Source: Lachnospiraceae bacterium (GTDB lineage Bacteria > Bacillota > Clostridia > Lachnospirales > Lachnospiraceae). From it: a stretch of 39,948 nucleotides of DNA. The notes under the pieces were generated by a model, which saw nothing but the letters and a program-made list of their open reading frames with translations, was not told where the DNA came from and did not search any database. Where the stretch lies: positions 1 through 39,948 of the forward strand of contig JAFZOW010000036.1 in the NCBI GenBank assembly GCA_017552715.1, given 5' to 3'. A program made the translations under genes and the position numbers. Below, one piece after another: positions 21,880-29,286 of this stretch; the first letter of the stretch is position 1, and the number at the start of each line of letters is the position of its first letter.

Positions 21880-21908
21880 ATTATCTCAAAAACTTGCGTC
21901 CTTGTCAA
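21880..21908 (-). promoter_or_regulatory. Promoter of tRNA operon
   Basis: Minus strand TTGACA (21908-21903), 17 bp, GATAAT (21885-21880), about 30 bp before tRNA-Arg. The -35 box overlaps the last codons and stop of the preceding gene. Confidence 0.87.
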
Positions 21909-24034
21909 GCCCTGCGTAGAGGAACATAATTACCCTGGCCATTTTTTGTGAATTTTGCCAGCCACTTCTTGGAATATTCATCCCCATGGTTTGCAGCACG
22001 GGAGAAATGCCCGACGGCAGAGTTATAATCCGGACCGCCGGAAACACTTAAAGTCTTAACATAGCCCAGGATGAATTCCGCACGGTTTTCCCCTTCTGCA
22101 AGGGAGCGTTCGGCATATTCCACAGCCTCTCCAAGCATAGCTTCATCCGGCTCCGCTCCGTATTCCTTTTCAGGATCGGCCAGACACCAGGCAATACGGT
22201 ACATGGCAAAGCGGTCATTCTTCACCAGCTCCAGGAGTTTCTTATACCACTCTACCGCCTTCTTCGCATCACGTTTTATTCCGCTGCCGAAATCGTAGGC
22301 AACGGCAAGATTCCGTATACCGCGCTCCTGTCCGGCTTCTGCAGCCTTTTCGTTCCACGTAAAGGCTTCTTTTGCGTTTCTCTTTATTCCGTCGCCGTAA
22401 AGATATGCCTGACCGACTGCAGCGGCAGCCGCGCTGTCTCCCAGTTCGGCGCATTGCTTATAATACTCAAAAGCTTCCGCGGGATCCTTCTCAACGGTCA
22501 CACCGTCTTCGTATACACGCCCGAGACAGAAAAGCGCTTTCGCCTTTACCTTGCTATCCGCCGCCAGTTCTTCATCCTCCAGAGCTTCCGTAAGCATGTT
22601 CTTCAGCGCTTCCTCGCCCTCGGGGACTTCCTTCCGGTTACGCAGGATCCAGTCCGCATAGTACACGCGGGCCTTCATACGCCCATGCAGGGCCGCATCA
22701 CGGACCAGCGGAGCCGCAAGCTTCATGGAGCCTTCCTTCTGATACATCAGCCCCAGACACTCCTCAAGCTTCCAGAAGAGTTCCGCGGATTCCGATAATT
22801 CCGGCTTGATCTGTGCAGTTGCAAAATAATCATTATAACGGTCCAGCGCACATTCCAGATCGCTGCGGGCTTCCTGCGGATCACTCTTGCTCTTCTCCAG
22901 GGCGCACTCCGCCAGACTGTCCGCTTCGGTCCTTTTGTCCGCCAGTGCCTTCTCACTCTCTTCGGCAGCCCTTCTCGCTTCTTCCTCGGCTTTTCTGGCC
23001 TCTTCCTCAGCTCTGCGGGCTTCCTCTTCCGCCGCAGCTTTTGCCGCTGCCTCCTCGGCAGCCTTACGTGCAGCTTCTTCCTCCGCGGCTTTGCGTGCAG
23101 CCTCTTCCGCCGCTATACGCTCTTCTTCTGCTTTACGGGCTGCTTCCTCTTCCGCTGCCTTGCGTGCGGCTTCTTCCTCTGCGGCTTTGCGGGCTGCTTC
23201 TTCAGCTGCCTTGCGCTCTTCCTCAGCTTTACGGGCCGCTTCCTCTTCTGCGGCTTTCTTTGCAGCTTCCTCAGCCGCTTTACGTTCTTCCTCAGCCTTA
23301 CGGGCCGCTTCTTCCTCCGCGGCTTTACGGGCTGCTTCTTCCTCTTTCGCTTTGGCTTCCGCTTCTTTTTCCGCCTCGCTGCGGGCTTCTTCCGCGGCTC
23401 TGCGGGCTTCCTCTTCCGCCAGCTGCTGCTTGGCCGCCAGCTGTGCTTCCGCCTCCTCGCGGGTCAGACCCACGGGTACGGGGATCGGTGCGGATACGGG
23501 AGCTGCCTGCGGTGCCGCAGGAGCTGCCGGCTGCATCGCCTGGGATACGGACATACTGCCGGGTACAGGTACACCTCCAACCGGCTGCATAAAGGGAGAT
23601 GCGGATGCTGCACTGTTTCCGGGTGCTGCCAGCATGGGATTGTTAGGTGCCGACTCCAATGTTACGGGAGCCGCAGCGGATGCCACATGCTGCTCCGAAA
23701 CAAAACTCGGTGCCCCGGGAACCTGCGGTGCAGGTTTGCCCAGACCGGCCGAAAAATCTTCCGCACTTTTTAAGAAATCAAGTTCGGGAACTTCCTCTGT
23801 CTTCGGAGCTGAAGGCTGAACACCCATGGGTATGCTTCCGTCTGCGGGACGGCCGCAGGCAGAACAGAACTTTGCTTTCGGATCAACGGTCGCACCGCAG
23901 TATGCACAGGGTTTCCCCTTCGGCGTAACTGCCTGACCGAAGAAATTCGTTTCCTTTACTTCCGATGACCCGCATTTCGGGCAGAAACGGTCGATCCTTC
24001 CCAGCTTGTTTCCACATTGTGCACAAACTCTCAT
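21905..24034 (-). CDS. Double zinc-ribbon / long alanine-glutamate coiled coil / Sel1-repeat protein
   Basis: 709 residues from ATG 24034 (AGAGG upstream; the frame to 24103 runs into the promoter). Two zinc ribbons: Cys4, 7, 18, 21 and Cys43, 46, 57, 60. Residues about 65-188 are a Pro/Ala/Ser-rich flexible linker. Residues 190-372 are an almost pure Ala/Glu/Lys/Arg helix or coiled coil built from near-identical 23-residue units. Residues about 495-605 carry Sel1-like repeats (LGRVYEDGVTVEKDPAEAFEYY, GQAYLYGDGIKRNAKEAF, YDFGSGIKRDAKKAVEWY), a protein-interaction solenoid. There is no signal peptide or membrane segment. It looks like a cytosolic scaffold; partners are unknown. A strong promoter lies at 24089-24117. 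Confidence 0.85.
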   Translation of the reverse strand: MRVCAQCGNKLGRIDRFCPKCGSSEVKETNFFGQAVTPKGKPCAYCGATVDPKAKFCSACGRPADGSIPMGVQPSAPKTEEVPELDFLKSAEDFSAGLGKPAPQVPGAPSFVSEQHVASAAAPVTLESAPNNPMLAAPGNSAASASPFMQPVGGVPVPGSMSVSQAMQPAAPAAPQAAPVSAPIPVPVGLTREEAEAQLAAKQQLAEEEARRAAEEARSEAEKEAEAKAKEEEAARKAAEEEAARKAEEERKAAEEAAKKAAEEEAARKAEEERKAAEEAARKAAEEEAARKAAEEEAARKAEEERIAAEEAARKAAEEEAARKAAEEAAAKAAAEEEARRAEEEARKAEEEARRAAEESEKALADKRTEADSLAECALEKSKSDPQEARSDLECALDRYNDYFATAQIKPELSESAELFWKLEECLGLMYQKEGSMKLAAPLVRDAALHGRMKARVYYADWILRNRKEVPEGEEALKNMLTEALEDEELAADSKVKAKALFCLGRVYEDGVTVEKDPAEAFEYYKQCAELGDSAAAAAVGQAYLYGDGIKRNAKEAFTWNEKAAEAGQERGIRNLAVAYDFGSGIKRDAKKAVEWYKKLLELVKNDRFAMYRIAWCLADPEKEYGAEPDEAMLGEAVEYAERSLAEGENRAEFILGYVKTLSVSGGPDYNSAVGHFSRAANHGDEYSKKWLAKFTKNGQGNYVPLRRA
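22955..23350 (-). repeat. In-frame coding repeats for the EEEAARKA coiled coil
   Basis: Within the scaffold gene, 69-bp units coding for EEEAARKAEEERKAAEEAAR-type 23-residue blocks recur three times, with shorter 9-residue EEEAARKAA blocks between them. Synonymous codons differ among copies, so the repeat is old or kept at protein level. Length variation among strains is likely. Confidence 0.75.
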
Positions 24035-24088
24035 CTCCACCTCTTTCCGAAGGCATCCTGCCCCCATAACCCCTAAATTCTGGTTATC

Positions 24089-24117
24089 ATTATAGTATAA
24101 CAAAAAAAAATTTTCAA
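24089..24117 (-). promoter_or_regulatory. Promoter of the scaffold gene
   Basis: Minus strand TTGAAA (24117-24112), 17 bp rich in T, TATAAT (24094-24089), about 55 bp before the start codon. Confidence 0.85.
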
Positions 24118-25584: not shown

Positions 25585-25833
25585 TTAATCGCATTCAAAG
25601 CATCCGGCGATCTCTCCTGCCGCCAGCTGTTCGTCCGATCCATCCGCGATCAGCTCCAGGCTGGTGCCCTGCTGAAGCTTCAGTATCGTCATGCCCATGA
25701 TACTTTTCATGTTGATCTTTTTTTCTCCCTCCTGAATATGCAGCGAACAATTGTAGTGGCATGCCGACTGCACCAGATAAGGGATAATGTCCGGCCCAAA
25801 TTCCTTCTTAATCCGGATGGTTTTCTGTATCAT
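25585..25833 (-). CDS. HPr-fold protein lacking the catalytic histidine (Crh-like)
   Basis: 82 residues from ATG 25833, a start that matches the usual HPr N terminus (MIQKTIRI); AAGGA lies about 10 bases upstream. A TTG at 25878 could extend it by 15 residues but has no ribosome site. The fold follows HPr: helix PYLVQSACHYNCS, strand LHIQEGEKKINM, KSIMGMTIL, then GTSLELIADGSDEQLAAGEI. At the position of GLHARP this protein has GPDIIP, so His15 is Asp and Arg17 is Ile; PTS phosphotransfer is not possible. The regulatory serine is kept (Ser44 in KSIMG, HPr Ser46). That combination recalls Crh, a regulator phosphorylated by HPr kinase. No PTS genes are nearby. Role inferred, not shown. Confidence 0.82.
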   Translation of the reverse strand: MIQKTIRIKKEFGPDIIPYLVQSACHYNCSLHIQEGEKKINMKSIMGMTILKLQQGTSLELIADGSDEQLAAGEIAGCFECD

Positions 25834-25888
25834 CTGATCCACATCCTTTTTGTTTTGTTCACCCCCAAACAACCCCAAAAAAGATGCC

Positions 25889-25920: not shown

Positions 25921-25993
25921 AGCGATAGACGGGACTCGAACCCGCGAGCTCAACCTTGGCAAGGTCGTGTGCTACCAACTGCACCACTATCGC
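25921..25993 (-). tRNA. tRNA-Gly (anticodon GCC)
   Basis: 73 nt: acceptor GCGATAG/CTATCGC, discriminator T, D arm GTGCAGTTGGTAGCAC, anticodon stem CGACC/GGTTG, loop TTGCCAA giving GCC, T loop GGTTCGAGTCC. CCA is not encoded. Confidence 0.95.
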
Positions 25994-27398: not shown

Positions 27399-27441
27399 AA
27401 AGTCCTCCGCAAATAAAACTACTTATGTAAACAATCGCTTT

Positions 27442-27470
27442 ATAATAGCACGAAGCCGAAAAGATTGCAA
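27442..27470 (-). promoter_or_regulatory. Promoter of NagZ-like gene
   Basis: Minus strand TTGCAA (27470-27465), 17 bp, TATTAT (27447-27442), about 45 bp before the start codon. It lies 30 bp beyond the end of the candidate ncRNA. Confidence 0.7.
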
Positions 27471-27499
27471 GTCCCCCCGGGGATGCACGCAGACAACGC

Positions 27500-27927
27500 G
27501 AAAGCCCTTGCAGTCTTATTTAATGCTGCAAGGGCTTTCACTCAAGCTCAGTATCCAATGGACCTTACCTCCTGTACTTCGAATTCACTCTGTCCATTTC
27601 CGAGTGCCCTGTCCGTTACCCGGCATCCGCCGCGGACGATCCCTATTCACTTGACCTGCTTCTCAGTTCCGCTACCCGACATCCTTCATCTTTGCACTTA
27701 TGCTGCAACGGTTGGAATATGTTCTTCGTTGCTCCTGCGATGAAACTTAATCAAGCTGCTTTCCTGAGCCCCTGTATCCCCTTTGCTTCCTGCGGATGAT
27801 ATGATCAAATTCTTACCTGGAAAACTCATCCTGCTTCTTCGCAACTATGGGATACTGCTTTCTTACTTAGGTGGACTGTACCTCCGTCTCTTTTTTTATC
27901 TTCTCAACAATCTCTCTTGTTGTTATG
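27500..27927 (-). ncRNA. Candidate large structured non-coding RNA (about 430 nt)
   Basis: This gene-free stretch has a consensus promoter (27933-27960) and no plausible reading frame. A minus-strand transcript can form many stems. Plus-strand positions: 27794-27799 with 27836-27841 (GGATGA/TCATCC); 27685-27690 with 27739-27744 (TTCATC/GATGAA), enclosing 27705-27710 with 27727-27732 (GCAACG/CGTTGC) and a GCA/TGC mini-hairpin; 27611-27615 with 27633-27637 (GTCCG/CGGAC); 27586-27590 with 27602-27606 (CACTC/GAGTG), whose loop 27592-27597 pairs with 27558-27563, a pseudoknot. It ends in a perfect 14-bp hairpin (27500-27513/27526-27539) without a T run. A 17-nt motif occurs twice (27612-27628, 27668-27684; 15 of 17 identical). 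It is not RNase P, tmRNA, SRP, 6S or a T-box by their known signatures. The raiA RNA family is a possibility I cannot confirm. Confidence 0.68.
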
Positions 27928-27932
27928 TACTT

Positions 27933-27960
27933 ATCTTACCACATTTTTCTAAATTGTCAA
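27933..27960 (-). promoter_or_regulatory. Strong promoter of the candidate ncRNA
   Basis: Minus strand TTGACA (27960-27955), 16 bp, TAAGAT (27938-27933), preceded by an A/T-rich UP-like block (27961-27992). No coding start follows for more than 500 bp. Confidence 0.82.
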
Positions 27961-28009
27961 TACTTTTTTGAAAATTATTTTAAATTTTTTATCCAACTTG
28001 AGAGGCCCG

Positions 28010-28035
28010 AAAAAAAGGGCTTTTCAGCCCTTTTT
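28010..28035 (-). terminator. Terminator of hom-lysC
   Basis: Minus strand AAAGGGCT / AGCCCTTT stem with GAAA loop followed by T residues, about 45 bp after the lysC stop. Confidence 0.92.
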
Positions 28036-28077
28036 CCGAGATATCACTGTATATTATCCTCAAAAAGATCAGTCAGA

Positions 28078-29286
28078 TCATTCTTCCAGGCCGAAGATCT
28101 CGTGGGCCGCATTCATGGCCTTCTCCACTTCCTTCTCATCAATGAGTACCGTAACGCGGATCTCGGAAGTGCTGATCATCTTAATATTGATATTGGAATT
28201 ATAAAGTGCTTCAAACATGCGTGCAGCCACACCGGGATTGCTCATCATGCCGGCGCCCACAACGGAAACCTTTGCCACACCCTTTTCGCATTCCAGCTTC
28301 TCATATTTCAGGCGGCTCTTGTTCTCTTCGATCACACGGATGGCATCATCCGCATAATCACCGGTCACGGTAAAGGCGATATCCTGGCTGTTATCGCGGC
28401 CTACGCTCTGCAGGATCATATCTACATTGATGTTGGCCTGTGCCAGTGCATCGAAAAGACGGAAGGCACTGCCCGGCTTATCACTTAAGCCCACCACCGA
28501 GATCTTGGCACAATTCTTGTCGGACGCAACGCCGCTAACTAACATTCTTTCCACTTTAACTTCCTCCTTCACTACGGTTCCTTCTTCATTGGTAAGGCTG
28601 GAGCGGACCACCAGCTGTACACCGTATTTCTTGGCAAGCTCCACGGAACGGTTGTGCAGAACCCCCGCTCCCAGGGTTGCCAGATCCAGCATCTCGTCAT
28701 AGGTGATCTCCGGAAGTTTCCGCGCCTTCTTCACCACGCGGGGATCCGCCGTATACACCCCGTCCACGTCCGTATAGATCTCGCAGGCATCCGCTTTCAG
28801 CGCCGCCGCCAGAGCCACCGCCGTGGTATCCGAGCCCCCCCGGCCCAAAGTCGTATAATTGCCGTACTTGTCGACACCCTGGAAGCCAGTCACGATCACG
28901 ATCTTCTTCTGATCCAGCTCGTGCCTTATGCGCTCGGTATCGATACGCTTTAAGCGTGCATTGGAATAGTTGGACGTGGTATGCATGGCAACCTGAAAAG
29001 CATTCAGGGAGACTGCGGGGATACCCAGCGTCGCAAAAGCCATGGCGGCAAGCGCCACACTTGTCTGCTCTCCCGTGGTCAGCAGCATGTCCATCTCGCG
29101 TCTCGAAGGCTCCGGATTGATGTTCCGCGCCATCTCGATCAGCTCGTCCGTCATCTTACCCATGGCAGAGAGCACCACCACCACATCATTTCCTTTCTGG
29201 TACTCATCCGCACAGCGGCGGGCCACATTCAGGATCCTTTCCTTATTGGCCACCGAGGTGCCGCCGAATTTCTTGACGATCAGCAT
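28078..29286 (-). CDS. lysC: Aspartate kinase
   Basis: 402 residues. It phosphorylates aspartate, the first step to lysine, threonine, methionine and diaminopimelate. Residues 1-235 are the kinase domain: KFGGTSV (6-12), the TTGEQTSVALAA block, TGFQGVDKYGNYTTLGRGGSDTTAVALA, and EIYTDVDGVYTADPR. Two ACT domains follow (about 260-330 and 340-402), including DKPGSAFRLFDALAQANINVDMI, a site of amino-acid feedback control. GGGAGG lies five bases before the ATG. It is 16 bp after hom, so the two enzymes are co-transcribed. The length is normal for monofunctional aspartokinases. Which amino acid inhibits it cannot be read. Confidence 0.97.
   Translation of the reverse strand: MLIVKKFGGTSVANKERILNVARRCADEYQKGNDVVVVLSAMGKMTDELIEMARNINPEPSRREMDMLLTTGEQTSVALAAMAFATLGIPAVSLNAFQVAMHTTSNYSNARLKRIDTERIRHELDQKKIVIVTGFQGVDKYGNYTTLGRGGSDTTAVALAAALKADACEIYTDVDGVYTADPRVVKKARKLPEITYDEMLDLATLGAGVLHNRSVELAKKYGVQLVVRSSLTNEEGTVVKEEVKVERMLVSGVASDKNCAKISVVGLSDKPGSAFRLFDALAQANINVDMILQSVGRDNSQDIAFTVTGDYADDAIRVIEENKSRLKYEKLECEKGVAKVSVVGAGMMSNPGVAARMFEALYNSNINIKMISTSEIRVTVLIDEKEVEKAMNAAHEIFGLEE

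Follow-up and report, generated by a model that had tools for sequence, protein, structure and literature searches.

The DNA between lysC and a glycosyl hydrolase family 3 gene in the window (the whole 39,948 nt stretch of Lachnospiraceae DNA analysed here) raises the question of what is encoded there and what it might do. An initial annotation, made from the letters alone, had placed in this interval a candidate independent, structured non-coding RNA, about 430 nt long and under a strong promoter of its own, between hom-lysC and a NagZ-like gene. The location is correct, the downstream gene being of glycosyl hydrolase family 3, and lysC lies upstream of the RNA gene with its own terminator-like hairpin in between. 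Homologues, synteny and covariation, all of them evidence from sequence, back such an RNA, and we regard the RNA gene call as near certain. The putative transcript is read from the minus strand, with its 5′ end set 5 nt past the −10 element (near 27928) and its 3′ end at the terminal hairpin at 27500. Its features and those of its immediate surroundings are:

27955..27960 (−), −35 element TTGACA, read from the sequence and kept in 22/22 genus homologues
27933..27938 (−), −10 element TAAGAT, preceded by TGG and thus an extended −10 as well
27500..27928 (−), RNA gene of about 429 nt, with genus homologues at the same place; start and end inferred
27905..27922 (−), 5′ hairpin CAACAA/TTGTTG (helix 1), six pairs invariant in 21 homologues
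27870..27885 (−), 5′ unit, Shine–Dalgarno hairpin GGAGG-UACAGU-CCACC; the hairpin pattern occurs in 122/397 family genomes
27609..27770 (−), genus-conserved structured core, helices 3 to 6 (covariance model R1: 164 positions, 30 pairs)
27568..27572 (−), Shine–Dalgarno sequence GGAGG of the 3′ unit (GGAGGUAAGGUCCA), with an anti-Shine–Dalgarno duplex of −11.7 kcal/mol
27538..27558 (−), mini reading frame TTG GAT ACT GAG CTT GAG TGA (MDTELE), whose stop overlaps the terminator stem at its base
27500..27539 (−), terminal 14-bp hairpin, candidate intrinsic terminator whose T run is weak in the window copy
27442..27470 (−), separate promoter-like site, TTGCAA-N17-TATTAT, read from the sequence and belonging to the glycosyl hydrolase family 3 gene downstream

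A structured RNA gene conserved in one genus

The TTGACA-N16-TAAGAT promoter of the initial annotation reads from 27960 to 27933 on the minus strand, and TTGACA followed by a 16-nt spacer recurs in all 22 genus homologues, with a −10 element that is TAAGAT in 10 and a different TA-rich hexamer in the other 12. The perfect 14-bp terminal hairpin with a poor T run had also been described accurately for the window copy, and the T run is better in several relatives. A site similar to the promoter-like one before the glycosyl hydrolase family 3 gene was seen by eye in several relatives.

When 60 genomes (the window's own included) were searched at the DNA level, 23 matched, all of them from the same genus. 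One match (L024, from genome G010) was rejected as a chance DNA match in what appears by eye to be an ABC-type coding region and was dropped before alignment, and another (L029, 31 bases matched) fell outside the examined loci. With about 1.5 kb of context taken on each side (L011 is cut by a contig end), the same downstream gene is within reach in 21 of the 22 RNA loci, and lysC (17) or hom (1) is the upstream gene in 18 of the 22. Model R1, built on the 3′ core, matches 22 of the 35 genus genomes, the window's own among them, and under strict filters it finds no match in 294 genomes of the order from outside the genus. Divergent copies were recognized by eye from the 3′ motif in G016, G023 and G005, and upstream of the downstream gene in G033, G013 and G014, the RNA being present in 28 of 35 genus members altogether (G010 and G024 are in neither the presence nor the absence count). 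In the 900 nt that precede the glycosyl hydrolase family 3 gene, inspection by eye revealed no RNA in G007, G011, G015, G018 and G022, and because it is absent there in these five the RNA is not needed at that place in all members of the genus. The RNA-carrying group was placed among rumen Lachnospiraceae. Protein coding across the region was considered and rejected, since the longest open frames per strand and homologue range from 22 to 93 aa and no frame is of stable length on either strand.

The strong structure described in the initial annotation is confirmed, with a fold z score against shuffles of −6.2 on the minus strand and −4.3 on the plus strand, and none of 100 shuffles as good. An alignment of 21 genus sequences (A1), from which the more divergent L025 was excluded, contains seven helices with 50 pairs, in which 98.5 % of the cells are standard pairs. 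Nineteen of these pairs are changed on both sides, against 8.7±1.5 in shuffled alignments, none of 500 of which reaches 19; the compensatory stems are thus borne out, and the proposed structure covaries among homologues. Slid versions of the structure give only 0 to 6 doubly changed pairs and 36 to 48 % paired, in a test that favours the unslid version because the structure was derived from A1 itself. At the 5′ end the pair next to helix 1 swaps between C–G and G–C among homologues and is unpaired in the window copy, and at the 3′ end five of the 15 counted pairs of helix 7, the terminal hairpin, are doubly changed. Two finer details of the initial annotation did not survive comparison: both halves of an H-type pseudoknot (27592–27597 with 27558–27563) are present in only 4 of 21 homologues, and a 17-nt repeat is found in the window copy alone (1/21). 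Pairing between the 5′ and 3′ GGAGG units was also predicted, and in the genus alignment its columns are invariant or without support.

A covariance-model scan, suggested with the initial annotation, found no Rfam 15 family for the RNA, the window yielding four tRNAs only, and a lax scan (E up to 10) of 27400–28080 produced no credible Rfam match. The guess that this might be raiA RNA is not supported, there being no RF03072 match in the window at the gathering score or in 27400–28080 at E up to 10; RF03072 is also absent from the window's own genome, a result that is weak alone since no control genome matched. Thirty-six further loci (of which L057 and L094 are the same place) gave at the gathering score only tRNAs and one Clostridiales-1 RNA. 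The latter (RF01699, 124.7 bits; L169:1679–1845, plus strand) lies on the opposite strand, back to back with the new RNA. Clostridiales-1 was accordingly discarded as the identity of the RNA in L169, being a separate neighbour, and raiA, ROOL, GOLLD, OLE and other Rfam families were set aside with no credible covariance-model match.

A mini reading frame at the terminator stem

The label non-coding is only partly right for this structured RNA gene, whose 3′ end holds a conserved mini reading frame. The related statement that the interval lacks a start codon or reading frame is right for long frames of stable length and wrong for a six-codon TTG frame, led by a Shine–Dalgarno sequence, at the terminator stem. 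All 21 aligned homologues have GGAGGUANNGUCC(A/C), TTG, GAN, one codon, GAR and two further codons, and then a TGA, TAA or TAG stop, which in 21/21 reaches with its last bases into the opening pairs of the terminator stem. The corresponding frame of L025 has five codons, and by eye its stop again adjoins the stem. When the 3′ pattern GGAGGTANNGTCCNTTGGANNNNGAR-N6-TRR, which also permits TGG, was scanned over about 85,000 species genomes, it was found in 37 stretches at 38 places, every one of them carrying a Lachnospiraceae, Blautia or Acetatifactor label, and a real stop, never TGG, is present at 38/38, a set that overlaps the 21 aligned homologues and in which many places are genus members again. 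The other matches sit in RNAs with very different 5′ parts, some of them very short (L092). On one contig (L085) the RNA is present twice, the copies lying 3.4 kb from each other and flanking ABC transporter-like genes.

Frames of 5, 6, 7, 8, 9 and 15 codons occur, all in frame with the terminator stem, and they start with ATG or TTG, or with GTG in L141 and L142. In these two the GTG frame has by eye 15 codons and its end is still on the terminator stem. Pairing of the hairpin arm with the anti-Shine–Dalgarno sequence was computed at −7 to −12 kcal/mol for five pieces, and in the predicted fold the Shine–Dalgarno sequence and start appear partly paired. We consider it likely that the mini-frame is translated.

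Hairpin units across the Lachnospiraceae

Selection on the 3′ end was avoided by searching 397 family genomes with the 5′ hairpin, GAGGTANNGWCCACC, which is found in 122 of them and in 111 of 334 genera, the reversed pattern giving about 29 (by eye). Taking chance matches off the 111/334 obtained by pattern, we estimate that between a fifth and a quarter of the genera sampled carry the RNA. A locus was said to pass when a start with a Shine–Dalgarno core is followed by a first in-frame stop that ends between −3 and +4 of the first G–C pair of the stem. Twenty of the 30 loci in the first set pass, these being all 19 that have a promoter and a terminator, plus L158. Among the remainder, L159, L160, L174, L167, L171, L172 and L186 are inside open frames of 379 to 878 codons on one strand and look like chance matches; L182 has a 113-codon open frame and no terminator, L178 a frame that is readable by eye and without a Shine–Dalgarno sequence, and L166 a three-unit array for which the script found no terminator. 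The regions of a second set were chosen before the sequence was seen, some of them for neighbouring matches, and 19 count (L213 is excluded): 15 of these pass (14 new, since L225 repeats L179), L211 fails and three are without a detected terminator. Together with L198 and L201 from the class search, which pass by eye, there are 36 distinct passing loci and two failures (L200 and L211) among the loci judged, and the passing loci are related to each other, so that 36 loci are not 36 independent events. L200 and L211 have near-identical letters, and their frame, TTG GGA TCG AAT TTC AGG, runs into the terminator stem.

In the two wrong frames, used as controls, a stop falls in the −3 to +4 range in 1 and 2 of 35; widening the range to −4 raises the +1 frame count from 1 to 7 of 35, because ATAG before the stop is common. 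None of 50 other terminators, taken from the window and 15 loci, has such a frame, with stronger stems required and starts within 36 nt. Several wider settings for the hairpin were considered and rejected. Spread outside the family was examined in a class sample, where 21 of 391 genomes matched, 16 of them outside the family; among the matches listed, 14 of these 16 are without an AYRG loop, and L197 and L205, which have the loop, lie antisense within open frames (389 and 314 codons, respectively). A phage origin was dismissed after one two-unit pattern was found on no viral contig, as was an mRNA regulon sharing the hairpin in the window's own genome, where, besides its two occurrences in the RNA, the pattern is present once more, antisense to a long open frame.

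In many relatives the hairpin unit is repeated, usually at a spacing of 50 to 66 nt, and upstream of the last one there are seven in L158, six in L162 (with a variant seventh by eye) and five in L154. The place of the start codon is mostly CCN in the upstream units, so that the window copy could initiate at the last unit only; in the window CCT AAG TAA (27871–27863) follows the hairpin of the 5′ unit, in the same frame as the 3′ unit uses. Of 89 units scored, last units included, the first frame-0 stop is at codon 3 or 4 in 53 and at codon 6 or 7 in 30, and there is none within eight codons in six, compared with 57/89 without such a stop in the +1 frame and 25/89 in the +2 frame. Five upstream units of L158 consist of ATG, two codons and TAA. 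Since upstream units keep an in-frame stop and these five keep ATG, the arrays suggest serial mini-frames, the start having been lost from most. GAGG is missing from 9 of 44 loosely matched units, and the hairpin may therefore matter more than the Shine–Dalgarno match. The parts shared across the family are one or more Shine–Dalgarno hairpins, mostly GAGGUAYRGWCCA, and the last, frame-opening one. On the sequences compared, the window RNA is a large, genus-specific member of a family that extends through the Lachnospiraceae.

Possible function and relation to known RNAs

We propose, with a probability of about 0.4, that this is a trans-acting RNA that engages ribosomes, and that it holds or titrates those that are initiating. 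The 30S subunits would pair with the hairpins via the anti-Shine–Dalgarno sequence, and ribosomes would begin at the last unit and, after only a few codons, stop on the terminator stem; the RNA might in this way capture or meter ribosomes as they initiate, and one that has reached the stop codon could shield or reshape the RNA 3′ end. What counts is probably not the peptide as such, since its length and letters drift while the geometry of frame and terminator stays. More tentatively, the family may represent a class of serial translation mini-units (Shine–Dalgarno hairpin, start or CCN, a few codons, stop) that capture and hold ribosomes, with one to seven upstream units plus the last unit on the terminator, and could be described as a ribosome-occupancy RNA. 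We know of no counterpart to a ribosome-occupancy RNA of serial mini-units.

CsrB/CsrC and RsmX/Y/Z sponges are independent RNAs with several similar hairpins, and a sponge of the CsrB/RsmZ type, whose tandem hairpins would sequester CsrA or another small RNA-binding protein and in which the mini-frame would be secondary, is the main alternative, weakened but credible, and in our view less likely than ribosome engagement. It would account for tandem hairpins with GGA, many of them with AYGGAC loops and most with AGGAGG-like arms: by eye about half of the listed family units have an ACGGAC or ATGGAC loop, and ACGGAC is in many distant units, several of them in one RNA in some distant relatives, and within the genus in the 5′ unit only (5 of 21 homologues). 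CsrA is also common (48 of 60 genomes), and passages in PMC4333381 propose TwoAYGGAY of Clostridia as a CsrA sponge. However, neither of the two window units has GGA in the loop, which is missing from the 5′ unit in 16/21 and from the 3′ unit in 21/21 genus homologues and so differs from the known sponges in not being conserved, and a sponge leaves the position of the frame relative to the terminator unexplained; the mini-frame is itself a difference from those sponges. Moreover, a well-matched RNA goes without any CsrA (PF02599) match in G019, G025 and G031 (97 to 100 % complete) and in G012 (92 %), and because of these four near-complete carriers the RNA is probably not only a CsrA sponge, with the qualification that the CsrA-negative carriers are draft genomes and may owe this to a single shared loss. 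CsrA has no match in 6 of 35 genus members (G007, G012, G019, G023, G025 and G031; G001 has a fragment only), of which four are at least 92 % complete.

The remaining alternatives are less probable. A dual-function small RNA with a short, mostly acidic peptide (MDxE..) as its active product seems improbable to us: codon 2 is GAN (Asp or Glu) with a free third base in 21/21 aligned homologues, and GAN in 25 of 34 distinct passing loci, but the peptides drift widely (e.g. MNTNKK, MIEPQK and MYCTEEHQ, and 15 codons in L141/L142), and because a GGA that begins codon 2 is able to pair with UCC in the spacer, codon 2 may reflect a structural constraint. Much the same doubt attaches to a base-pairing small RNA that would regulate mRNAs via exposed core segments such as AAGAUGGAGGAUGAU; the genus core does contain long near-invariant stretches, yet it is seen in the genus alone (with strict filters R1 matches 0/294 other genomes of the order), and what is found family-wide is the hairpins and the frame. 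We give very little weight to a cis-acting leader, in which translation of the mini-frame would block the terminator and allow transcription into the next gene. A stop codon on the terminator stem is the geometry expected for a ribosome that prevents the hairpin, and the glycosyl hydrolase family 3 gene is downstream in 21 of 22 genus loci; however, that gene has its own promoter-like site in the window, and the next long frame is convergent in L085, L088 and L105 (and, past a short frame, in L086). By eye, neighbours elsewhere, several of them convergent, include ABC transporter, feoB-like, coaBC-like, mscL-like and exonuclease-like genes, with an aspartokinase-like gene again upstream in L091, L092 and L095, and a gene like the window's downstream one following in L025, L074, L094 and L096. 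Since neighbours thus differ between loci and some are convergent, the RNA does not appear to be a leader.

Among known RNAs, ROOL, GOLLD and OLE are large and ornate, and ROOL is named after the rumen; the window RNA is unlike them in having no Rfam match and in having a fixed position within the genomes of the genus. Lambda bar and other minigenes, with frames of two to a few codons, act through translation itself, in mRNAs. They resemble the present family in their tiny frames and differ in that here there is a separate structured RNA with serial units, and the same applies to the two-codon minigene of axe-txe, which acts in cis, in an mRNA (PMC8708949). raiA RNA is likewise a structured RNA of Clostridia, but it is 205 nt long in a cryo-EM study (PMC12286853, in excerpt) against about 430 nt here. 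A further likeness is to TwoAYGGAY, an RNA of Clostridia and the human gut with AYGGAY terminal loops (excerpts of PMC4333381, PMC11661157 and PMC2864571), in that some family units have a GGU-ACGG-ACC loop. The window does not contain two hairpins with AYGGAY loops, its loops being ACAGUC and AAGGUC, and RF01731, whose presence among the 4227 models is assumed, has no match in the window or the 36 loci, nor at lax E in four loci. The present RNAs are further unlike TwoAYGGAY in having the Shine–Dalgarno arm within the hairpin, tandem units with in-frame stops and a 3′ mini-frame on the terminator. Searches of open-licence PubMed Central texts, some of them aimed at known RNAs, turned up no account of the family, and lists of anonymous candidates (e.g. 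PMC8040213) could contain it; as far as these searches reach, the architecture is new.

An RNA with a strong promoter and no Rfam match is thus found in a family common in gut and rumen, the Lachnospiraceae being among the commonest bacteria of both. If serial Shine–Dalgarno hairpins and frames of three to nine codons do engage ribosomes, this would be a new control of translation capacity; if the RNA is instead a protein sponge, it would found a new sponge family, where the proposal contained in passages of PMC4333381 was unvalidated.

Two other parts of the window, both on the minus strand, may be recorded here. Positions 21905–24103 encode a long protein that, as read from the translation, has N-terminal cysteine motifs and an Ala/Glu/Lys-rich repeat stretch, and a tRNA gene at 25921–25993 directly adjoins a small reading frame at 25585–25878.
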